NCBI RefSeq assembly: GCF_032842345.1
Contig: NZ_WBKO01000001.1
Location: forward strand, 1,612,001-1,676,000
Direction: 5' to 3'
From: Methanoculleus caldifontis
GTDB taxonomy: Archaea; Halobacteriota; Methanomicrobia; Methanomicrobiales; Methanoculleaceae
Length of the DNA stretch: 64,000 nucleotides
Position 1 is the stretch's first letter. Every line of letters begins with the position of its first letter. The translations under genes were made by a program, and so were the position numbers. This document shows, piece after piece, positions 4,808-64,000 of this stretch. The notes beneath the pieces are model-generated. The model worked only from the letters and a program-made list of their open reading frames with translations. It was not told where the DNA came from and searched no databases.

Positions 4808-5093
4808 TTCACACGAAATGCGAGCGAAGCGAGATCGAGCGTCGAAGGTGTGAGCCGCGACGCTCCATAAGGAGCGGAGTTTGAGCACCCTCAGGTGCGA
4901 CTTGCGAGCAAAGCGAGCATGAGAAGCCCTCAGAAGTCCGGTGGATAGGTACCTGGTGATCTCCTTCGCGGCTTCGCGTCTTTCACGTGAGACTTTGTGC
5001 TGTCTCTATGACAACCTCACGCGAAGCCGCGAAGGACGCGAAGTTCAGATCCTGAGAGTAACTCTTCTTCGGGTCTTTCGCGTGAGACCATGT
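4808..5093. repeat. Dispersed GCGAAG inverted-repeat element, copy 1
   Basis: This convergent gap between msrA and the thioesterase gene holds a copy of the window's dispersed repeat family. Facing arms carry the shared core: CTTCGCGGCTTCGCGT on one side and TCACGCGAAGCCGCGAAG on the other. The left part also has the secondary motifs GTGCGA, GAGCACC and CAGGTGCGA. The copy looks composite, with a partial arm (TCTTTCGCGTGAGACC) at its right end. No protein is encoded. Confidence 0.7.
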
Positions 5094-19619: not shown

Positions 19620-19967
19620 CGCTCTTCGCGTCCTTCGCGGTTCGAAGCCTGAGGGCTTCTCATGCTCCGGTCCTTTGGGCCATCGCACTTCGCACCTTCG
19701 GTGCTCGAACTCCGGACGTCCCGTCCGTCGCACTTCGCGGCTTCGCGCTCTTCGCGTGAGATCTTATCAGTCCCTGTACTTTCCCTCACGCGAAGCCGCG
19801 AAGAACGCGAAGTTCGGTGAATGGGTGCTGGCAGTCCCCTCCGTACCTGGCGGCGCTCATGCTCCTGCCCTGCAGGCAGTCGCACTTCGCGGCTTCGCGC
19901 CTTCGCGTGAGACTGTATCGCTATCCGAACAAGTTAGATCACGCGAAGCCGCGAACCAAAAAAGAGG
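19620..19967. repeat. Dispersed GCGAAG inverted-repeat elements, copy 2 (composite)
   Basis: A 350-base block between the DUF4013 gene end and the leuA promoter, built of two or three adjoining copies of the repeat family. Arms CTTCGCGGCTTCGCGCTCTT, TCACGCGAAGCCGCGAAGAA, CTTCGCGGCTTCGCGCCTTC and TCACGCGAAGCCGCGAAC alternate in orientation. They enclose secondary motifs GCACCTTCGGTGCTCG and GGGCTTCTCATGCTCC. The element ends only a few bases before the DUF4013 stop codon (19974). No gene is present. Confidence 0.7.
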
Positions 19968-23400: not shown

Positions 23401-23485
23401 TCTTCGCGTCCTTCGCGGTTTCGCGTGATCTGGCGGCTTATGAGCAGTGATACGGCTTCACGCGAAGGCGCGAAGGCGCGAAGAG
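23401..23485. repeat. Dispersed GCGAAG inverted-repeat element, copy 3
   Basis: A short simple copy: TCTTCGCGTCCTTCGCGGTTTCGCGTGA on the left, a spacer of about 30 bases, then TCACGCGAAGGCGCGAAGGC on the right. It lies between the GNAT gene end (minus strand) and the first DUF4013 gene. Confidence 0.65.
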
Positions 23486-29425: not shown

Positions 29426-29595
29426 TCTCACGCGAAGTGCGAGCGTAAGCGTAACTTTGAGCATCGAAGGTGCGAGCCGCGATGGTCCGTCAGGACCGGA
29501 GCGTGAGACGCTATTGGGCTTCGAGCCGCGAAGAACGCGAAGTCTGTGAGGTTGCCAGTTACTTCCCTTCGCGGCCTTCGCGTCTTCGCGTGAGG
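29426..29595. repeat. Dispersed GCGAAG inverted-repeat element, copy 4
   Basis: A 170-base copy between dnaJ and the tRNA methyltransferase gene. The left arm TCTCACGCGAAGTGCGAGCG and right arm CTTCGCGTCTTCGCGTGAGG face each other. Inside are GAGCATCGAAGGTGCGAGCC, TCCGTCAGGACCGGAGCG and a second internal core GCCGCGAAGAACGCGAAG. It has the full-length form of the family, with internal secondary hairpins. The rest of the 371-base gap holds T-rich tracts after dnaJ. Confidence 0.7.
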
Positions 29596-30710: not shown

Positions 30711-30938
30711 TCTCACACGAAGCCGCGAAGCCGCGAAGGGAATTACTAACAACCAACCGGCTTCGCGTTCTTCGCGGCTTCGCGCGAGCTAATGGGTGCG
30801 GATAGCGATACGATCTCACACGAAGCCGCGAAGCCGCGAAGGAGAGTTGTACGCCCTTACCGAACTTCGCGTTCTTCGCACCTGACGGTGCTCATGCTCC
30901 GTTCCTGCGGAACGTCGCACTTCGCGGCTTCGCGTGAG
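30711..30938. repeat. Dispersed GCGAAG inverted-repeat elements, copy 5 (tandem)
   Basis: Two copies in tandem between the tRNA methyltransferase and GtrA-like genes. The first is compact: TCTCACACGAAGCCGCGAAG facing CTTCGCGTTCTTCGCGGCTT. The second starts with the same TCTCACACGAAGCCGCGAAG and ends CTTCGCGGCTTCGCGTGAG, with the insertion GCACCTGACGGTGCTCATGC and TTCCTGCGGAA hairpins between. The remaining part of the 414-base gap shows no gene. Confidence 0.72.
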
Positions 30939-35584: not shown

Positions 35585-35702
35585 TCTCACGCGAAAGACG
35601 CGAAGCCGCGAAGTACGAGCGTAGCGAGCTCGAGCACCGTCAGGTGCGAGGCAAGTTGCATACCCATCACCAATCTTCGCGTTCTTCGCGGCTTCGCGTG
35701 AG
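35585..35702. repeat. Dispersed GCGAAG inverted-repeat element, copy 6
   Basis: A compact complete copy between the convergent malQ and RHH-like genes: left arm TCTCACGCGAAAGACGCGAA, inner motifs GTACGAGCGTAGCGAGCTCG and GAGCACCGTCAGGTGCGAG, right arm CTTCGCGTTCTTCGCGGCTT ending CGCGTGAG. The arms are true inverted repeats, so a transcript would fold into a long stem with small internal hairpins. Confidence 0.7.
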
Positions 35703-35774: not shown

Positions 35775-35969
35775 TCAGTACCTGCTCAGGGCCTCGAGTT
35801 CCTCGCGGATGGTCCGGCGGACCATCTCCTCGATGGCGGTGTAGTCGCGTCTGGCCTTCTCCTGCTTCTTCAGGAGTTCCTCCATCTTCATGACCCCGAC
35901 TGAGAGGCTCTTCCCGTACTTGAGGGCGACCTCCAGCGCCTCTTCGTCGATCCGGACGACCTTCGACAT
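35775..35969 (-). CDS. Small ribbon-helix-helix-like DNA-binding protein (putative)
   Basis: A 64-residue protein beginning SKVVRIDEEALEVALKYGKS. A short polar beta strand (KVVRI), then two predicted helices with the second rich in charged residues, fit the ribbon-helix-helix (MetJ/Arc) fold of archaeal repressors and antitoxins; the C-terminal half is a long amphipathic helix. No toxin gene lies directly beside it. The assignment is supported by the six regularly spaced TGTTAC sites just upstream of its promoter, an arrangement RHH proteins commonly bind. ATG at 35969. A TATA-like ATAAATC sits about 25-31 bases upstream, touching the operator array. Confidence 0.6.
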   Translation of the reverse strand: MSKVVRIDEEALEVALKYGKSLSVGVMKMEELLKKQEKARRDYTAIEEMVRRTIREELEALSRY

Positions 35970-36000
35970 GAGGGAGAGGTTTTCCGGCCGCGGATTTATG

Positions 36001-36081
36001 TGTTACAGTTTTGTTACGCGAGGGGGTATGGCTGTTACAGTTATGTTACGCTGCCGGAGTTCTCTGTAACATCTGTGTTAC
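36001..36081. promoter_or_regulatory. Three 32-bp-spaced paired TGTTAC operator sites
   Basis: Six half-sites occur at 36001, 36012, 36033, 36044, 36065 (TGTAAC) and 36076. Within each pair the spacing is 11 bp; between pairs it is exactly 32 bp, about three helical turns. Each pair has the form TGTTACAGTTTTGTTACG. The array lies directly upstream of the RHH-like gene's TATA region, so all sites face the same side of the helix and could bind a protein cooperatively. Confidence 0.75.
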
Positions 36082-36209
36082 GGAGGACAATTGGGCCGAT
36101 CGGAGCGCCTCCCTGCTGCTGCACCGGGGCCGCACATCTCGCCGGGCGATCCGGCAGACGCCTTCACTCCCGGTCTCGGCGAACCGCCGGATGCAGGCCG
36201 CGTCCTGAC

Positions 36210-37268: not shown

Positions 37269-37555
37269 GCGGGTACCACCCTTCCGCTGCCCGTCTCCCG
37301 GCCCGCCCGAACTCGTTGAAAACAACCGTCATGAATCTTCCCCCCTCTTCGGACAGGGGGTCCACTGTACAGGACGGTATATATGATCTTCCTCCGCTCC
37401 CACCCGCCGGGCCACGCCCCGGGCGGAGGCGTGGGGTGGCCTGAACCGGGATAATCACTATACGTTGCCGGTTTGCTGAATAACTCCCGTATATGTTCGA
37501 TTTTTTTCGAAGTCAACCATGCTTTTATCTCCCTTTCCTGCCCATATGCAGGTGT
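37269..37555. promoter_or_regulatory. Divergent promoter region with upstream ORF and hairpins
   Basis: Between the dehydrogenase (minus) and META protein (plus) genes. For the dehydrogenase, a TATA-like CATATATACC (minus strand, about 37377-37386) precedes a short open frame of 23 codons (37332 to 37264, MTVVFNEFGR...) whose stop overlaps the dehydrogenase ATG. On the other side TTCGA-N6-TCGAA (37496-37511) and a TATA-like CTTTTATC (about 37521-37528) precede the META gene. Confidence 0.4.
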
Positions 37556-39199
37556 ATGGCACCCAACAGAAGAAGGAACAGAAACTACATCCTCGCGACG
37601 GCGTCGCTCCTCGTCATCGTCGTGGCGAGCATCATCACCGCGGGATGCACGGCAGGAACGTCCGCCCCCGGTGCGACTGCCGGGCTGACCGGGGTCTCGT
37701 GGTCGCTCGACTCCTACCTCGCCGGGAACGGCACGCTCGTCCCGGCCCTGCCCGGAACGGAGGTCACGGCGGCCTTCGGCCCTGACGACAAGGTCACCGG
37801 CTCGGCCGGGTGCAATGGTTACGGTGGCGACTACCGTCTCGACGGGACGAGCCTCTCGGTCTCATCGCTCGCCCGGACGCTGAAACTCTGCCTGGAGCCC
37901 GAAGGCATCATGGAGCAGGAGGAGCGGTTCCTGGACCTCCTCGGCTCGGCGGCAGGCTACCGGCTTGAGGGTGACCGGCTCCTCATCACCGGTGCCGACG
38001 GCGCGACGACGCTCGTCTTCGTGAAGGGAGCCGAACCCGTGGCACTCTCCGGAACCTCCTGGAGGCTCGCAAGCCTCGCCGGCGAGAACGGCACGATGAC
38101 CCCGGTCATCTCCGGCACGAACGTCACGGCGAACTTTGATGCCGACGGCAGGCTCGGCGGCTCGGCCGGGTGCAACAGTTACGGCGCCGATTACGCCGTG
38201 GACGGCGCGAACCTCCGGATCGAACCGCCCATAAGGACCGAGATGTACTGCAGCGAGCCGCCGGGTCTCATGGACCAGGAGGACCGCTACCTCGCGTTCC
38301 TGACGGAAGCCGCCTCCTACCGGGTGGAGCGGGTGACGGAGAACGGCGAGAGGATCTCTCTTGGCGCCACCATCTCCTCCCGGACGGAGAGCGACCGGCT
38401 GATCCTCACGGACCGGAACGGCACCGACATCCTGGTCTTCGAACCGGTCTTCCCGACGCCCGATCTCCCGCTCGCCGGGACCGACTGGGTGCTCGACGGC
38501 TACAGCACCGGGGGAGACGCGGTCTCCTCGGTGATCGCCGGGACGACGATCACCGCGACCTTCTCGCCTGACGGGAACGTCACCGGAAACGCCGGGTGCA
38601 ACCACTACGGCGGCAACTACCTCCTCGATGGAACGAACCTCTCGGTCTCCTCGGTCTACAGCACCCTGATGTACTGCGAGGAGCCGGCGGGAACCATGGA
38701 GCAGGAGGCGAGGTACCTCGGCCACCTCGCGAACGTCTCCTCCTACCGGGTCGAGGGCGACCGCCTGACCCTCACGGACGCGGCGGGGATCGATCTCCTC
38801 TTCTTCGTCCAGGCGGAAGAGGTGCCGGCGGCCCCCCTCACCGGGACAGGGTGGACGCTCGAGTCCTACAGCACCGACGGGGTCTCGGCCTCCTCGGTGA
38901 TCGCCGGGACCGCGATCACCGCGGCCTTCAGCGATGACGGGAACGTCACCGGCTCTGCCGGGTGCAACAGGTACGGGGCCGGCTACCTGCTCGACGGCGC
39001 GAACCTCACCGTCGAGCCGCCGATCAGCACGAAGATGCATTGCGGCGAACCGGAAGGGGTTATGGAACAGGAGAATAGATACCTCAGTCTTCTTGAATCG
39101 GTCACGGGCTACCGGATCGACGGCGACCGGCTCGACCTCCTTGATGGGTCCGGCCGGGCCCTGCTCTCCTACCGGGCCGGCGGCGCGGCGCGGCCCTGA
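37556..39199 (+). CDS. Lipoprotein with four META (HslJ-like) domains
   Basis: A 547-residue secreted lipoprotein. A basic N-terminus and hydrophobic helix end in ITAGC (lipobox). Four META domains of about 115-130 residues follow, each with a GTxW start, the core GSAGCNxYGxxY (GNAGCNHYGGNY in repeat 3), a C-x-EPxGxMEQExRYLxLL segment, and a final DRLxLTDxxG strand. The META fold is known from HslJ and related proteins, where it is linked to heat-shock or surface roles; no enzymatic function is established. The second domain carries an insertion after YRVERV. Paired conserved cysteines (GC and C-x-EP) in each repeat suggest one disulfide per domain. The start chosen has AGGTG upstream and excludes a longer in-frame ATG at 37493. 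Confidence 0.85.
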   Translation: MAPNRRRNRNYILATASLLVIVVASIITAGCTAGTSAPGATAGLTGVSWSLDSYLAGNGTLVPALPGTEVTAAFGPDDKVTGSAGCNGYGGDYRLDGTSLSVSSLARTLKLCLEPEGIMEQEERFLDLLGSAAGYRLEGDRLLITGADGATTLVFVKGAEPVALSGTSWRLASLAGENGTMTPVISGTNVTANFDADGRLGGSAGCNSYGADYAVDGANLRIEPPIRTEMYCSEPPGLMDQEDRYLAFLTEAASYRVERVTENGERISLGATISSRTESDRLILTDRNGTDILVFEPVFPTPDLPLAGTDWVLDGYSTGGDAVSSVIAGTTITATFSPDGNVTGNAGCNHYGGNYLLDGTNLSVSSVYSTLMYCEEPAGTMEQEARYLGHLANVSSYRVEGDRLTLTDAAGIDLLFFVQAEEVPAAPLTGTGWTLESYSTDGVSASSVIAGTAITAAFSDDGNVTGSAGCNRYGAGYLLDGANLTVEPPISTKMHCGEPEGVMEQENRYLSLLESVTGYRIDGDRLDLLDGSGRALLSYRAGGAARP

Positions 39200-39419
39200 T
39201 CGGCCCTCCGACTTCGGGGCGGAGACCGGCCTGCTCCCGCCCCCCTTTCTCGATCGTCTCTGTAGTAAAGGCCATCCGGCATCTCCGGTGCCGGAGCGGG
39301 CTCTCACGGCGGATCGGCGCCGGCTCCTTTCTGCCGTAAAGATGCGGGGGATTGAGAGAATTCCGATGGGAATCGGTTAGTTTTTCTTCCCCCGCTCCCC
39401 ACGCCTATCCGTGGTACCG

Positions 39420-40268
39420 ATGGGCGGAGGCGGGCACAATATACTCTCAAAGGTTGCGTTCCTGATCATCGTGGCGGCCTGCCTCGTCTCGGTCGGCTAC
39501 TCCGGCGGGACGGAGACGCCCCCCGACAGCGTCGGCCGGGTCGCGGAGCCGCTTGCGGGAACGGCATGGGATCTCGTCGCGTTCCGTGCCGATAACGGCT
39601 CCGTCGCCACGCCCCTCTCCGGGGCCGAACCGCTCATCATCTTCGGCGACAGCGGCACGCTCTCGGGCTCCGCAGGATGTAACCTCTACTCGGCCACCTA
39701 CCGGATCAACGGCTCCGGCATCAAAGTGGAGCCCGTCGCCGTCACGGCGGCATACCCCGCAAAGGCGCAGGCACTCATGCAGCAGGAGAGCCGCTACCAT
39801 GAGCTCCTCGTCGCGGCGGCCTCCTACCGGGTCGAAGGCGACCGGCTGATCTTCTACGGACCGTCAGGGAGGGAACTGCTGATCTTTGCCCGGTCAGGAG
39901 AGCCGGCGAGCGTGCCGCTCCTCGGGACGGAGTGGCAACTCGCCCGCTACAGCACGACCGGCAGCACCGTCGCCTCGCCGGTCCCCGGCACCGGCGTCAA
40001 CCTGACGTTCGACCCCGACGGCACGCTCTCCGGGTCTGCGGGGTGCAACGCCTACTCGGCTCCCTACCTGGTCAACGAGACGGGGATCGCCGTCGAGCGG
40101 ATCGTCGCGACGAAAGCCTCCGCCACCGAGCCCGCGGGGATCATGGAGCAGGAGGCCGCCTACCTCGCCCTGCTCCGGACGGCCGCGGGCTACCGGATCG
40201 TCGGCGACACCCTGGCGGTCATCGACGGTAACGGCCGGGCGATCCTCTTCTTCAAAGCGGAAGGGTGA
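39420..40268 (+). CDS. Secreted protein with two META domains
   Basis: A 282-residue relative of the upstream protein. The N-terminus (MGGGGHNILSKVAFLIIVAA...) is a signal peptide; VAAC within it fits a lipobox (Cys 21), but a further hydrophobic stretch follows, so lipidation is uncertain. Two META domains follow with GSAGCNLYSATY and GSAGCNAYSAPY cores. Unlike the first protein, both domains lack the Cys of the C-x-EP segment: they read AYPAKAQALMQQESRY and ASATEPAGIMEQEAAY, so the proposed disulfide is absent. A GTG at 39411 is an alternative start. The tandem arrangement suggests duplication followed by divergence. Confidence 0.82.
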   Translation: MGGGGHNILSKVAFLIIVAACLVSVGYSGGTETPPDSVGRVAEPLAGTAWDLVAFRADNGSVATPLSGAEPLIIFGDSGTLSGSAGCNLYSATYRINGSGIKVEPVAVTAAYPAKAQALMQQESRYHELLVAAASYRVEGDRLIFYGPSGRELLIFARSGEPASVPLLGTEWQLARYSTTGSTVASPVPGTGVNLTFDPDGTLSGSAGCNAYSAPYLVNETGIAVERIVATKASATEPAGIMEQEAAYLALLRTAAGYRIVGDTLAVIDGNGRAILFFKAEG

Positions 40269-40324: not shown

Positions 40325-40699
40325 CTCGCACCTGACGGTGCTCGAATTCCTTCCCTCCGGGGGAGTCGTTCTACGCACCTTCGTGTGAGGTGAAGATGCG
40401 GGCAGGGTGATACAGCCTCTCGCGTTGGACGCGAAGCCGTGAAGGACGATGCTCCTATGGAGCGGAGTTGGAGCACCGTCAGGTGCGGAGGAGCATTGCA
40501 CACCCATTTACCGAACTTCGCGCTCTTCGCGGCTTCGCGCGAGCTAACGGGAACAGATAGCAATAGGGCCTCACGCGAAGAGCGCGAAGCCGCGAAGGGA
40601 GTCACCCTCATCGCTCGACCAGGCTTCGCGTCCCTCGCACCTGAACGGTGCTCGAGCTCCTATCCTACGGATAGTCGCACTTCGCGCCTTCGCGTGAGT
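40325..40699. repeat. Dispersed GCGAAG inverted-repeat elements, copy 7 (composite)
   Basis: The 465-base convergent gap between the second META gene and the SnoaL-like gene is filled by two or three adjacent copies of the repeat family. Visible arms are GCGTTGGACGCGAAGCCGTG, CTTCGCGCTCTTCGCGGCTT, CTCACGCGAAGAGCGCGAAG and CTTCGCGCCTTCGCGTGAG. GCACCTGACGGTGCTCG, TCCTATGGAGCGGAG and GCACCTGAACGGTGCTCG inner hairpins recur. Nothing in it looks coding. Confidence 0.7.
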
Positions 40700-50982: not shown

Positions 50983-51050
50983 ACTCACGCGAAGGCGCGA
51001 AGTCAGGATTATTCTCGTCGTCCTTCGCGTTCTTCGCGGCTTCGCGTGAG
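50983..51050. repeat. Dispersed GCGAAG inverted-repeat element, copy 8 (minimal)
   Basis: The clearest minimal copy, 68 bp, in the convergent gap after UPF0280. Left terminal arm ACTCACGCGAAGGCGCGAAG, spacer of about 20 bases, right arm CTTCGCGTTCTTCGCGGCTT then CGCGTGAG. It lacks the internal GAGCACC hairpins of the longer copies, so those are an optional cassette. Confidence 0.72.
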
Positions 51051-57164: not shown

Positions 57165-60100
57165 ATGTCCCACCACCGACTTGCCTTTTTTGTCTGTTTA
57201 CTGCTGGTAGCCAGTTGCATCTTCTCTGTACAGGCTTTTGAACAAGAAAACATCCCCCCCGGGATGGCGACGACCCCTTTCATCGGGGCCGTGAGCGGCA
57301 CCATGGATTTCCTCTGGCACCTCCTGCTGGATGGTCCGATGATGCTTGCGGAGGCCGTGGCCGGTTTTACCCTCTCGGTCACCTCGAATCCTTCCGGTGC
57401 ATCTATTCTTCTGGACGGGAGCGATACCGGGGCGACCACGCCGGCCGAGATCGGCGACATGTCCCTCTCGGTGCATAACGTCACCGTCGTTCTGGACGGC
57501 TACCTCTCCGGCATCAACGAGACTGTCGAGGGTATGGCCGGCGGGACGACCGCGGTCCACTTCGACCTGACGGCAGAGACCGGCAGGGATGAAGACCCGC
57601 TCGACCCCTCCTTCTCGGCCAACACGACCTCCGGGACGGTCCCGTTTGTGGTCGGGTTCACGGACGAGTCCGCCGGCACCCCGGTCGAATGGTTCTGGGA
57701 GTTCGGCGACGGGGAGGTCTCCGTCGAGCAGAACCCGGTCCACACCTATGCTGATGCGGGGACGTATACCGTCTCCCTGACCGTGGCGGATGCGGAAGAG
57801 TCCGCGACCGCTGTCAGGGAAGACTATATCGAGGCGGCCACACCCGAGGAGCCGGCGTTTGAGGCGTTTGAGGCGTTTGGCGCCCCTTTCGGGATCCCCC
57901 CCTCCGCCCCGACCGCGGCGTTCTCCGGGACGCCGAGATCCGGCCCGGCACCTCTGACCGTAGCCTTCACCGACGCCTCGACCGGCGGTACTCCGACCGG
58001 CTGGGCCTGGTTCTTCGGCGATGAGACCTATGGCGAAGCCTGGACGGAACAGACCGCGAGCGCCGGGTGGGATGCGAGATCCGATCACACCAGTGTGGTG
58101 CTGCCGAGCGGAAGCATCGTGCTCATGGGCGGGCGTGACGACAACACCTGGTACAACGACACCTGGCGGTCGGACGATGGTGGCGAAACCTGGACGAAGG
58201 TGAACGAGAGTTCCGGGTGGACGGCACGATCCCAGCACACCAGCGTCGCGTTGCCGGACGGAAGCATCATACTCATGGGCGGGTATGACGGCAACACCTA
58301 CGCCAACCAGAACGATACGTGGCGATCGGACGACGGCGGCGCAACGTGGGCGCTGGTGACCGCGAGTGCCGGGTGGGAGGCAAGGAACGCCCACGCCAGT
58401 GTCGTGATGCCGGACGGAAGCATCATGCTCATGGGCGGCTTTGACGGCAGCAGCCCCCTGAACGACGTGTGGCGGTCGACCGATGGTGGTGAAACCTGGA
58501 CGCGGGTGACCGAGCACGCCGGGTGGGATGCAAGATACGATCACACCAGTGTTGCGCTGTCGGACGGCAGCATCGTCCTCATGGGCGGTTGGGACGGCAG
58601 CACCCTGAACGACGTGTGGCGATCGACCGACAACGGCACAACCTGGACGCAGATGACCGAGCATGCCGGGTGGACGGCACGAGACTCCCCCACCAGCGTT
58701 GCGATGCCGGACGGCAGCATCGTGCTCATGGGTGGCGATGACGGAAATCGGAAGCGCGACGTCTGGCGGTCGACCGACAACGGCGCGACCTGGACACGGT
58801 TATCTGATGCCGGGTCGAGAAGAGCCAGACACACCAGTGTCGCGATGCCGGATGGGAGCATCATCCTCATGGGTGGGTACGATGGCAACTGGATCCTGTT
58901 GAACGACGTGCGGCGCCTCCAGCCTGCAGGATCGGCGGCAGAGAACCCCACGCACACCTACACAGAACCGGGCACCTACTCAGTAACCCTGCAGGCGTAC
59001 AACGGCGTTGGATACAATGCTTCCACCATCGTCGACTACATCGTGGTCTCCGCTCCTACCCCGACCCCCGCCCCAGCCGCGAGCTTCACGGTGAACGCCA
59101 CCAGCGGGACTGCCCCCCTTGCGGTGCAGTTCAACGATACCTCCGCCGGCAGCCCGACCGGGTGGGCCTGGTTCTTCGGCGATGAGACCTATGGCGAAGC
59201 CTGGACAGAGCAGAACACGAACGCCGGGTGGACGGCACGCCAGGGACACACGGCGGTCGCGCTGCCGGACGGGAGCATCCTCGTTCTGGGCGGTGAGGCT
59301 GATGGCGACATCAGGAACGACGTGTGGCGGTCGGCCGACAACGGCACCACGTGGGCTGAGGTGAACGCGAGCGCCGGGTGGGCGGCGCGGTTCGGCCACA
59401 CCAGCGTTGCGTTGCCGGACGGCAGCATCATACTCATGGGAGGCCGGGACGCCCTAAATTGCTTCAGCGACGTGTGGCGGTCGACCGACAACGGTGCCAC
59501 GTGGACTGAGGTGAACGCGAGTGCCGGGTGGGCGGCAAGAACCTTTCACACCAGCATTGTGCTGTCGGACGGGAGCATCGTGCTTGCGGGCGGCCTGGAC
59601 GGTGATATTAATCAGCAGAACGACGTGTGGCGGTCGGCCGACAACGGCGCCACCTGGACGGAGATGAATGCGAGTGCCGGGTGGCCGGCACGGTTCAGCC
59701 ACGCCAGCGTTGCGCTGCCGGACGGGAGCATCGTCCTCATGGGCGGGTCTGACGGCACCACCTGGTACAACGACGTGTGGCGGTCGATCGATTCCGGCGC
59801 GACCTGGACCTGCGTGAACGCGAGTGCCGGGTGGACCGGACGGCAAGGGCACACCAGCGTAGCGCTGCCGGACGGGAGCATCGTGCTTGCGGGCGGCCTG
59901 GACGGTGATATTGATCAGCAGAACGACGTGTGGCGGTCGACTGACGGCGGCGCGACCTGGACACAGTTACCTGATGCCGGGTGGGCGGCACGCATGGAGC
60001 ACACCAGCGTAGCGCTGCCGGATGGGAGCATCGCCCTGATGGGCGGTACGAGTGCCGACTGGACCCAGTCCAACGACGTGTGGCGCCTCCAGCCCGCAGG

Positions 60101-63100
60101 GTCGTCGGACCAGAGCCCGTCGCACACCTACACGGAACCGGGCACCTACTCAGTAACCCTGCAGGCGTACAACGCCGCGGGGTACAATGCTTCCACGGCT
60201 GTCGACTACATCGCGGTCTCCGCTCCCACCCCGACCCCCGCCCCAGCCGCGAACTTCACGGCGAACGCCACCAGCGGGACTGCCCCCCTTGCGGTGCAGT
60301 TCAACGATACCTCCGCCGGGAGCCCGACCGGGTGGGCCTGGTTCTTCGGCGATGAGACCTATGGCGAAGCCTGGACTGAACAGACCGCGAGCGCCGGGTG
60401 GACGGGACGATACTTCTCAACCAGCGTCGCGCTGCCGGACGGGAACATCGTGCTCATGGGGGGTTATGACGGCAACCCCCTGAACGACGTGTGGCGGTCG
60501 GCCGATGACGGCGCGACCTGGATATGCGTGAATACGAGTGCCGGGTGGGATGCAAGATACGATCACACCAGCGTCGTGATGCCGGACGGCAGCATCGTGC
60601 TCATGGGCGGCTGGGACAGCACCACTACATTCAATGATGTGTGGCAGTCGACCGATTCCGGCGCAACCTGGACGCTGGTGACCGAGCATGCCGGGTGGCC
60701 GGCACGATACGGTCCCACCAGCGTGGCGCTGTCGGACGGCAGCATCGTCCTCATGGGCGGTTTGGGTGGCAATCTCAAGAACGACGTGTGGCAGTCGACG
60801 GATGGCGGCGCAACCTGGACGGAGGTGAATGCGAGTGCCGGGTGGACGGCACGCAGATATCACGCCAGTGTTGCGCTGCCGGATGGGAGCATCGTGCTTG
60901 CGGGCGGTATGGACGGTACTTTCACCATGCAGAACGATACCTGGCGGTCGACGGACGGTGGGACCACGTGGGCGTGCGTGAACGCGAGTGCCGGATGGCC
61001 GGCACGGTTAAGTCCCATCAGCGTGGCGCTGCCGGACGGGAGTATCGTCCTCATGGGCGGCAGTGACGGCACCACTACATTCAATGATGTGTGGCGGTCG
61101 ACCGACAACGGCGCGATGTGGACGGAGGTGACCGCGAATGCCGGATGGGGGGGACGTTTCTATGCTACCAGCGTGGCGCTGGCGGACGGGAGCATCGTCC
61201 TCATGGGTGGTCTGGACGGCACCTTTGCTCCCCTGAACGATACATGGCGCCTCCAGCCCGTAGGTTCGCCGGACCGGAACCCCACGCACACCTACATGAC
61301 CCCGGGCACCTATTCAGTAACCCTGCAGGCGTACAACGCCGGCGGGTACAATGCTTCCACGGCCGTCGATTACATTAACGTCATCGACGCCCCGGCCGCC
61401 CCGACCGCGAACTTCACCGCGAACGTCACCGCTGGATTGGCCCCGCTCGCGGTGCAGTTCAACGATAACTCCACCGGGAGCCCGACCACCTGGAACTGGA
61501 CGTTCGGCGACGGCTCCTTCAGCGAGGAGCAGAACCCGGTCCACACCTACGCGAGCGCCGGGACCTACACCGTCAACCTGACGGCCAGCAACGCGGCGGG
61601 AACCGACACTCTCTCCCGGGCCGGGTACGTCGCGGTCACAGCCCCACTGGCAGCGGCGTTCTCCGGCGCGCCGACCAGCGGCATGGCGCCCCTGACCGTA
61701 ACCTTTACGGATGCATCGACCGGGAGCCCGACCTGCTGGGCCTGGTTCTTCGGCGATGAGTCGTACAGCGAAGCCTGGACTGAGGTGAACGCGAGTGCCG
61801 GATGGGATGCACGCTATGGCCACACCAGCGTCACGCTGCCGGACGGCAGCATCGTCCTCATGGGGGGGAGTAGCGGCGAGAACGACGTGTGGCGGTCACA
61901 CGATAACGGCGCGACCTGGACGTGCATGAACGCGAGTGCCGGGTGGGCGGCGCGTATGTATGCCACCAGCGTGGCGCTGCCGGACGGCAGCATCGTGCTC
62001 ATGGGGGGGAGTGGCGGCGAGAACGACGTGTGGCGATCGCACGATTCCGGCGCAACCTGGACAGAGGTGAACGCGAGTGCCGGATGGGATGCACGAATCT
62101 TCCACACCAGCGTTGCGCTACCGGACGGGAGCATTGTCCTCATGGGCGGCAGGGTCGGCAACGCCTATGAGAACGACGTATGGCGGTCGACCGATGGCGG
62201 TGCAACGTGGACCGAGGTGACCGCGAGTGCCGGATGGGCGGGGCGGTGGAACCCCGCCAGCGTTGCGCTGCCGGACGGGAGCATCGTCCTCATGGGCGGC
62301 AGTGACGGCACTACTACATTCAATGATGTGTGGCGGTCGACCGACAGCGGCGCAACCTGGACGCAGATGACCGGGAGTGCCGGGTGGACGGGACGGCACA
62401 TGCACACCAGCGTTGCGCTGCCGGACGGGAGCATCGTCCTCATGGGCGGTGTCGACATGACCAGCACCAAACTGAACGACACGTGGCGGTCGACCGACAG
62501 CGGCGCGACGTGGACGTGCGTGAACGCGAGCGCCGGGTGGGCGGTACGTGTGTTTGCCACCGGCGTGGCGCTGGCGGACGGAAGCATCGTCCTCATGGGC
62601 GGGTTTGCCACCGATATTGGCAATATGAACGACGTGTGGCGGTTCCAGTTCGCGGGATCGTCGGAGCAGAGCCCGTCGCACACCTACACAACTCCGGGCA
62701 CTTACTCGGTAACGCTGCAGGCATACAACGCCGGCGGCTGCAACGCATCTACGGCCGTCGACTACATCACCGTCGTCTCCCCCCCGACCGCAAACTTCAC
62801 CGCGAACGTCACCGGCGGAACGGCTCCGCTCGCGGTGCAGTTCAACGATACTTCCACCGGGAGTCCGACCGGGTGGAACTGGACGTTCGGCGACGGGGCG
62901 ACCTCCACCGAACAGAACCCGGTCCACACCTACGCGACCGCCGGGACCTACACCGTCAACCTGACGGCCGACAACGCGGTGGGAACCGACACCCTCTCCC
63001 GGACCGGGTACGTCACGGTCATGGTCCCGCCGCCGATAGCCGCATTCAACGGGACGCCTCGTACCGGCATCGCACCACTGACGGTGAACTTCACCGACGC

Positions 63101-64000
63101 ATCGACCGGGAGCCCGACCGGGTGGGCGTGGTTCTTCGGCGATGAGTCGTATGGCGAAGCCTGGACAGAGCAGAATGCGAGCGCCGGGTGGACGGGACGA
63201 TACTTCTCAACCAGCGTCGTGACGCCGGACGGGAGCATCGTCCTCATGGGGGGAACTCGCGGTGGCATTAGTATGCGCGACGTGTGGCGGTCGACCGATG
63301 GCGGCGTGACCTGGGCGTGCGTGAACGCGAGTGCCAGCTGGTCGGCACGAAGGTCTCATACCAGCGTGGCACTGCCGGACGGGAGCATCGTCCTCATGGG
63401 CGGGTATACCAGCACCAGCGGCAGCCGGTTGAACGACGTCTGGCGGTCGACCGATAACGGCGTTACCTGGACGTGCGTGAACGCGAGTGCCGGGTGGACT
63501 GAACGAAACGGTCATACCAGCGTGGCACTGTCGGACGGCAGCATCATTCTCATGGGCGGCAGTAACGGCTCCGCCAGTCTGAACGACGTGTGGCGGTCGA
63601 CCGATAACGGCGTTACCTGGACCTGCATGAACGCGAGTGCCGGGTGGACTGGACGAAACGGCCATACCAGCGTTGTGCTGCCGGACGGGAGCATCGTCCT
63701 CATGGGCGGCAACACTAAAAACGACGTGTGGCGGTCGACCGATGGTGGCGCGACCTGGACGCAGTTACCCGGCGCCGGGTGGTCGCCGCGTATGTATGCC
63801 ACCAGCGTGGCGTTGCCGGACGGGAACATCGTCTTCATGGGCGGGTCTGCCAGTGGTGGTATCAATATGAACGACGTGTGGCGGTCGCCCGATGGCGGCG
63901 CGACCTGGACGCAGTTACCCGGTGCCGGGTGGACGGCACGAATGTGTCATACCAGCGTGGCACTGCCGGACGGCAGCATCGTCCTCATGGGCGGTGATGG
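57165..64000 (+). CDS. Giant secreted PKD protein with nested six-bladed kelch/Asp-box propellers (3' end outside window)
   Basis: One open frame without a stop for at least 2,278 codons, running off the window. Order: signal peptide (cleavage near SVQA), a PEGA-like domain (about 66-140: SVTSNPSGASILLDGSDTGA), an intact PKD domain (about 150-225: WFWEFGDGE ... NPVHTYADAGTYTV), then five PKD domains, each interrupted after WAWFFGDE by a propeller array and resumed at NPTHTYTEPGTYSVTL or a close variant. Two further intact PKD domains separate modules 3/4 (about 61396-61644) and 4/5 (about 62785-63030). Blades are 46-52 residues: GWxARxxHTSVALPDGSIVLMGG, a variable turn, NDVWRSTDNGATWT. The second part is a sialidase-type Asp-box (SxDxGxTW). 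Modules 1-4 each have exactly six blades; the fifth is cut in blade six. ATG at 57165 chosen; GTG at 57153 is an alternative. Likely a surface adhesin or glycan-binding S-layer protein (inference). Confidence 0.9.
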   Translation, partial: MSHHRLAFFVCLLLVASCIFSVQAFEQENIPPGMATTPFIGAVSGTMDFLWHLLLDGPMMLAEAVAGFTLSVTSNPSGASILLDGSDTGATTPAEIGDMSLSVHNVTVVLDGYLSGINETVEGMAGGTTAVHFDLTAETGRDEDPLDPSFSANTTSGTVPFVVGFTDESAGTPVEWFWEFGDGEVSVEQNPVHTYADAGTYTVSLTVADAEESATAVREDYIEAATPEEPAFEAFEAFGAPFGIPPSAPTAAFSGTPRSGPAPLTVAFTDASTGGTPTGWAWFFGDETYGEAWTEQTASAGWDARSDHTSVVLPSGSIVLMGGRDDNTWYNDTWRSDDGGETWTKVNESSGWTARSQHTSVALPDGSIILMGGYDGNTYANQNDTWRSDDGGATWALVTASAGWEARNAHASVVMPDGSIMLMGGFDGSSPLNDVWRSTDGGETWTRVTEHAGWDARYDHTSVALSDGSIVLMGGWDGSTLNDVWRSTDNGTTWTQMTEHAGWTARDSPTSVAMPDGSIVLMGGDDGNRKRDVWRSTDNGATWTRLSDAGSRRARHTSVAMPDGSIILMGGYDGNWILLNDVRRLQPAGSAAENPTHTYTEPGTYSVTLQAYNGVGYNASTIVDYIVVSAPTPTPAPAASFTVNATSGTAPLAVQFNDTSAGSPTGWAWFFGDETYGEAWTEQNTNAGWTARQGHTAVALPDGSILVLGGEADGDIRNDVWRSADNGTTWAEVNASAGWAARFGHTSVALPDGSIILMGGRDALNCFSDVWRSTDNGATWTEVNASAGWAARTFHTSIVLSDGSIVLAGGLDGDINQQNDVWRSADNGATWTEMNASAGWPARFSHASVALPDGSIVLMGGSDGTTWYNDVWRSIDSGATWTCVNASAGWTGRQGHTSVALPDGSIVLAGGLDGDIDQQNDVWRSTDGGATWTQLPDAGWAARMEHTSVALPDGSIALMGGTSADWTQSNDVWRLQPAGSSDQSPSHTYTEPGTYSVTLQAYNAAGYNASTAVDYIAVSAPTPTPAPAANFTANATSGTAPLAVQFNDTSAGSPTGWAWFFGDETYGEAWTEQTASAGWTGRYFSTSVALPDGNIVLMGGYDGNPLNDVWRSADDGATWICVNTSAGWDARYDHTSVVMPDGSIVLMGGWDSTTTFNDVWQSTDSGATWTLVTEHAGWPARYGPTSVALSDGSIVLMGGLGGNLKNDVWQSTDGGATWTEVNASAGWTARRYHASVALPDGSIVLAGGMDGTFTMQNDTWRSTDGGTTWACVNASAGWPARLSPISVALPDGSIVLMGGSDGTTTFNDVWRSTDNGAMWTEVTANAGWGGRFYATSVALADGSIVLMGGLDGTFAPLNDTWRLQPVGSPDRNPTHTYMTPGTYSVTLQAYNAGGYNASTAVDYINVIDAPAAPTANFTANVTAGLAPLAVQFNDNSTGSPTTWNWTFGDGSFSEEQNPVHTYASAGTYTVNLTASNAAGTDTLSRAGYVAVTAPLAAAFSGAPTSGMAPLTVTFTDASTGSPTCWAWFFGDESYSEAWTEVNASAGWDARYGHTSVTLPDGSIVLMGGSSGENDVWRSHDNGATWTCMNASAGWAARMYATSVALPDGSIVLMGGSGGENDVWRSHDSGATWTEVNASAGWDARIFHTSVALPDGSIVLMGGRVGNAYENDVWRSTDGGATWTEVTASAGWAGRWNPASVALPDGSIVLMGGSDGTTTFNDVWRSTDSGATWTQMTGSAGWTGRHMHTSVALPDGSIVLMGGVDMTSTKLNDTWRSTDSGATWTCVNASAGWAVRVFATGVALADGSIVLMGGFATDIGNMNDVWRFQFAGSSEQSPSHTYTTPGTYSVTLQAYNAGGCNASTAVDYITVVSPPTANFTANVTGGTAPLAVQFNDTSTGSPTGWNWTFGDGATSTEQNPVHTYATAGTYTVNLTADNAVGTDTLSRTGYVTVMVPPPIAAFNGTPRTGIAPLTVNFTDASTGSPTGWAWFFGDESYGEAWTEQNASAGWTGRYFSTSVVTPDGSIVLMGGTRGGISMRDVWRSTDGGVTWACVNASASWSARRSHTSVALPDGSIVLMGGYTSTSGSRLNDVWRSTDNGVTWTCVNASAGWTERNGHTSVALSDGSIILMGGSNGSASLNDVWRSTDNGVTWTCMNASAGWTGRNGHTSVVLPDGSIVLMGGNTKNDVWRSTDGGATWTQLPGAGWSPRMYATSVALPDGNIVFMGGSASGGINMNDVWRSPDGGATWTQLPGAGWTARMCHTSVALPDGSIVLMGGD
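58034..64000 (+). repeat. Coding tandem repeat array (about 30 blades of 140-156 bp)
   Basis: At DNA level the blades share near-identical blocks, above all CCGGACGGGAGCATCGTCCT with CATGGGCGG, and GACGTGTGGCGGTCGACCGA. The array has five blocks (about 58034-58915, 59210-60095, 60370-61250, 61770-62648 and 63180 onward), each flanked by PKD halves. Some variable segments recur almost exactly in distant blades, for example GACGGCACCACTACATTCAA at about 61070 and a one-base variant at about 62305. Confidence 0.85.

Follow-up and report, generated by a model that had tools for sequence, protein, structure and literature searches.

A phased array of TGTWACA boxes, the putative operator of an order-wide small-protein gene in Methanoculleus and related methanogens

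The window analysed here, a 64,000-nt stretch of the Methanoculleus caldifontis genome (G000), contains three pairs of short boxes with a 32-bp period (36001..36082), directly upstream of a minus-strand gene for a 64-residue protein (35775..35969). This array is probably the operator of the gene, and from comparison with orthologous loci we infer that the gene's own product binds there and represses its promoter as a cooperative autorepressor. An autoregulated repressor had been proposed in a preliminary description of the DNA, and sequence comparison lends this proposal good support: as expected for such a repressor, a conserved array lies at the core promoter of its own gene. The encoded protein, a putative ribbon-helix-helix (RHH)-like autoregulator, founds a small-protein family that is absent from Pfam, NCBIfam and PHROGs.

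The six box starts (36001, 36012, 36033, 36044, 36065 and 36076) and their alternating spacing of 11 and 21 bp were all found as first described. Five of the boxes read TGTTAC on the plus strand, as had been claimed for all six, while the one at 36065 is TGTAAC, with TGTTAC at 36066 when read on the opposite strand. The array thus comprises TGTWAC boxes in three pairs, 11 bp apart inside a pair and 21 bp apart between pairs, and an independent repeat search returned three 28-nt copies with spacings of 32 and 32. In gene orientation the unit is better described as TGTWACA, a 7-bp near-palindrome, so that a single box could accommodate a complete dimer and need not be a half-site.

All six boxes were assigned to the minus strand and numbered towards the gene. 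Box 1 (36076..36082) forms the distal end of the array, and box 2 (36065..36071) is TGTAACA on the plus strand and TGTTACA in gene orientation. Box 3 (36044..36050) is paired with box 4 (36033..36039), and box 5 (36012..36018) with box 6 (36001..36007), which reads TGTAACA in gene orientation, as it does in 21 of the 22 six-box Methanoculleus loci. Exact TGTTACN5TGTTAC pairs occur twice in the 64-kb window, both times in the array, with 0.00 expected from 100 shuffles, and six of the window's ten TGTTAC words (both strands counted) fall inside these 81 bp. A search of the whole 2.6-Mb genome for the 17-mer, with one mismatch allowed, gave three matches in the array and one elsewhere. The array is not due to chance, and the genome has essentially no such pairs besides its three.

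The boxes sit just upstream of the open reading frame, next to its promoter as first described, and start at -113, -102, -81, -70, -49 and -38 relative to the ATG. Box 6 directly precedes CATAAATCC, which includes the TATA-like element ATAAAT (35994..35999, minus strand); the box adjoins this element and overlaps the expected BRE. The distance of about 28 bp from ATAAAT to the ATG is that expected for leaderless archaeal mRNA and predicts a leaderless transcript, with a start site placed by this spacing. A scan for bacterial promoters gave no match, as expected for an archaeon.

The open reading frame is a real gene: mismatches among 29 close orthologues are concentrated at the third codon position (0.125, 0.082 and 0.261 per position for the first, second and third). 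Orthologues are present in 27 of 35 Methanoculleus genomes and in one sister genus. Of the order's 232 genomes covered by a profile search, 77 have the gene, nearly always in one copy; the bearers belong to families f1, f3, f4 and f5, and families f2 and f6 lack it. Outside the order, none was found among 393 genomes sampled across the phylum. A candidate from Thermoanaerobaculaceae (L048) was rejected as a chance match within a longer unrelated protein, with no boxes. Throughout Methanoculleus the small gene has no partner and, in nearly all genomes examined, faces malQ in convergent orientation, whereas the dehydrogenase on the other flank of the array lacks conservation there, which indicates that the array belongs to the small gene.

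We then asked whether the sites are missing upstream of orthologues, using 30 upstream regions from the window's own family and 36 distant ones (66 loci). Nearly all orthologues in the four families carry the array. In the window's family it is present at 30 of 30 loci, 29 from Methanoculleus and one from a sister genus; over all 66 loci, at least four boxes lie within 160 bp upstream in 57, and all six are present in 36. Spacings are 10-11 bp within pairs and 20-22 bp between them, and of the 85 pair-to-pair periods 81 measure 31-32 bp, skips of 61-63 bp being left out. Identity between loci reaches 86-99% in the boxes compared with 33-45% in the inter-pair gaps and the upstream flank, a contrast that arises partly by construction, because the boxes were picked by pattern.

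The array and the gene also occur together. A strict three-box pattern was found in 59 of the 77 gene-bearing genomes versus 2 of the 155 that lack the gene (Fisher P = 3e-36, a value that is too strong because the genomes share kinship), and the reversed control of this pattern had 0 matches in the 232 genomes. Of the two gene-less genomes with the pattern, one (G202) contains a simple tandem repeat and the other (G076) is incomplete. Among the 59 gene-bearing genomes, the matches of G103 and G107 lie directly behind the small gene, and G082, G114 and G116 have matches away from it; those of G082, G114 (contig C4) and G202 were rejected as real arrays, being simple tandem repeats. Elsewhere in Methanoculleus, paired boxes were not above control (9 versus 12 in 35 genomes), and the window's own genome has, beyond this locus, one two-mismatch pair versus five control matches per strand. 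With paired boxes elsewhere at control frequency, this looks like a one-target system in Methanoculleus.

These observations also bear on whether some other host DNA-binding protein occupies the array, the 64-residue protein being merely its target. Sequence and structure searches recognised no DNA-binding fold in the protein, as that explanation would have it, but boxes and gene are lost together and the boxes have no other clear targets in Methanoculleus. Furthermore, S2, V4 and R6 of the protein are invariant or nearly so in 41 homologues, as expected of residues reading an equally invariant box. We therefore regard a different host binder as unlikely.

The position of the array relative to the promoter argues for repression. 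TATA-like elements lie at a fixed distance from a box in the orthologues, an A/T-rich run beginning 6-9 bp past a box start in 50 of the 66 loci. The TATA-adjacent box is the final one of the array in Methanoculleus, but the one that ends pair 2 in G037, f4 and f5. In the latter group the array is displaced towards the gene by one whole period of 31-32 bp, the TATA-like element lies between pairs 2 and 3, and pair 3 lies partly over the start codon or touches it (TGTAACATG). Genus g22 of f5 retains a single element, the TATA-adjacent one. Taken alone, the Methanoculleus loci could also suit activation, with sites just upstream of TATA. Between lineages the boxes change from abutting BRE and TATA to covering the start, a pattern that points to repression, and the site over the start in the shifted arrays argues in the same direction.

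According to the mechanism that we propose, each near-palindromic TGTWACA box would be bound by a dimer of the 64-residue protein. A pair of boxes would hold two dimers separated by one helical turn, the pairs would recur every three turns, and up to six dimers could align along a single face of the DNA, where they would cooperate. With the TATA-adjacent box overlapping the BRE, a filled array would block the access of TBP and TFB, and this blockage would hold the protein at a set level.

The start of the protein had been described as RHH-like. In an alignment of the 41 homologues, M1, V4, R6, Y18, S23, M29 and R51 are invariant and S2 nearly so, and no family of Pfam, NCBIfam or PHROGs covers them. 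The AlphaFold2 monomer model built from this alignment (mean pLDDT 89, pTM 0.54) has an extended segment at residues 1-8, with no formed strand, followed by a helix (9-18), a three-residue turn and a second helix (22-62). An earlier run with a shallower alignment of 16 close sequences had given one long continuous helix; it was superseded by the 41-sequence run. The predicted order of elements fits RHH, and by comparison with Arc the alternating S2, V4 and R6 would face the DNA.

No profile, profile-profile or fold match accompanied this likeness. PF01402 and related RHH profiles matched one of the 41 members, at an E-value of 0.089, and profile-profile comparison with RHH (hhalign) gave a probability of 5%, equal to that of shuffled controls. 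Foldseek and VIA matched no RHH chain with the model, a monomer without the intertwined dimer, as query. Compared with Arc and CopG, the distance from the strand to the second helix is about four residues shorter in the model. We therefore label the protein RHH-like without placing it in the RHH superfamily, since no RHH profile or structure matched and the first helix falls short by about one turn; membership is plausible on the predicted model, and this small protein of an uncatalogued family probably binds DNA. Among other candidates, searches of the PDB with the single protein returned only designed helical proteins and enzymes, and a profile search gave matches of the same kinds. A dihydrodipicolinate reductase from the latter (E 0.002) was taken as chance, and a RecN coiled coil and an RGS complex (Foldseek, E 9-10) were treated as noise.

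Small size, an N-terminus like that of RHH antitoxins and an array at the promoter would also suit an antitoxin left over from a degraded toxin-antitoxin pair, which the preliminary description had offered as a second reading. The distribution of the gene speaks against it: this is a chromosomal gene found order-wide, nearly always in one copy per genome, and no known toxin gene is adjacent in any family examined, the gene standing alone in f1 and f4 and having non-toxin partners in f5 and f3. A ParD model matched one of the 41 members, weakly (E 0.027). An orphan antitoxin is thus hardly credible.

These partners raise another possibility. The next gene in 14 f5 loci encodes a protein in two parts, the C-terminal one a calcineurin-like phosphoesterase (PF12850/PF00149), and in 14 of 14 f3 loci an Asn-synthase-like protein (PF00733). 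In the f5 genus g19, two of the three loci read (L109 and L112) have the array before the phosphoesterase gene and none before the small gene, which suggests, from the sequence arrangement, that the same binder controls the phosphoesterase partner there. Two further g19 genomes (L232 and L233) have box clusters just downstream of the small gene. Arrays behind the small gene in g19, like the clusters of G114 and G116, are not explained by autoregulation on its own. The product might accordingly bind the array and mainly regulate a partner, autoregulation being secondary, with Methanoculleus having lost or moved the partner and kept the regulator. Against this, the identity of the partner varies between families, f1, f4 and genera g16 and g17 of f5 have no partner gene at that place, and no relatives of the phosphoesterase were found in Methanoculleus genomes; in G001 there is one, without boxes nearby. 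Extra single box pairs in f3 genomes have no consistent gene behind them. Partner control as the main function is possible, though we consider it rather unlikely.

In G114 and G116 the promoters of the small gene have no array. The clusters of these genomes (1984-2052 in L229 for G114; 2057-2105 in L228 for G116) are intergenic, with no obvious promoter or open reading frame. Box clusters away from the gene could mean that an RHH partition-type protein binds the array as a centromere-like or nucleoid-organising site, and phased direct arrays at the promoter of their own binder are typical of plasmid partition sites. Such a function is very improbable here: no partition ATPase is adjacent, each genome has just one three-pair array, and the TATA register is conserved, which a centromere would not need.

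The autorepressor that we favour has counterparts among known systems. Arc, MetJ, CopG and omega bind as RHH dimers to short, often palindromic boxes about one turn apart; they cooperate along arrays and are commonly autoregulated. They differ from the present system in box sequence and in lacking a pattern of 0, 1, 3, 4, 6 and 7 turns, and they have no recognisable sequence similarity to the 64-residue protein, whose modelled first helix is shorter. To our knowledge, few archaeal operators are known at comparable resolution. In the literature library searched, there was no report of the TGTWACA motif or of the 64-residue family.

The closest working analogue that we found is SvtR of the archaeal virus SIRV1, a 6.6-kDa RHH autorepressor with a solved RHH fold and further targets (PMC5569661). 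SvtR is likewise tiny and acts as a repressor at its own promoter, from which it is proposed to extend along the DNA towards BRE and TATA (PMC5569661). Its site is an imperfect inverted repeat, whereas the array here consists of phased 7-bp boxes, and no sequence match between the two proteins was found. The closest cellular analogue is CdrS of haloarchaea, a short RHH regulator of the PF01402 superfamily that is cotranscribed with ftsZ2 (PMC7439475, PMC8406309). CdrS and the 64-residue protein are alike as small archaeal regulators, putatively so in our case, with a single chromosomal copy, but they belong to different protein families, the 64-residue family having no PF01402 match. A small PF01402 protein is encoded separately in the window's genome (G000:C1:1710247-1710366).

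Operator, TATA register and presumed binder can thus be traced together over four methanogen families, and an order-wide gene outside all family databases gains a testable role. The whole-period shifts and the transfers to a neighbouring gene offer a natural test of the limits that phasing and distance to TATA and BRE set on archaeal repression. More tentatively, the protein may represent a new archaeal DNA-binding family that acts as a self-contained expression homeostat. In Methanoculleus it would have no recognisable operator other than the array at its own gene, a helical-turn lattice that moves relative to TATA by whole units of 31-32 bp, and other lineages would have used it to control different partners.

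Other repeats were observed in the window. A dispersed, REP-like repeat, TTCGCGTTCTTCGCGGCTTCGCG, has eight copies in the 64 kb, with 0 expected (5020-5042, 19789-19811, 23403-23425, 29568-29590, 30762-30784, 35676-35698, 40517-40539 and 51024-51046), and the one located behind the small gene makes up an inverted repeat of 20 nt (35598-35617/35680-35699). Long arrays of tandem units of about 150 bp, which encode repeated protein modules, occupy 58032-63994. Finally, two adjoining genes for secreted-looking proteins (37493-39199 and 39411-40268) contain four and two repeats, respectively, of the same module (LAGTxWxLxxY...).
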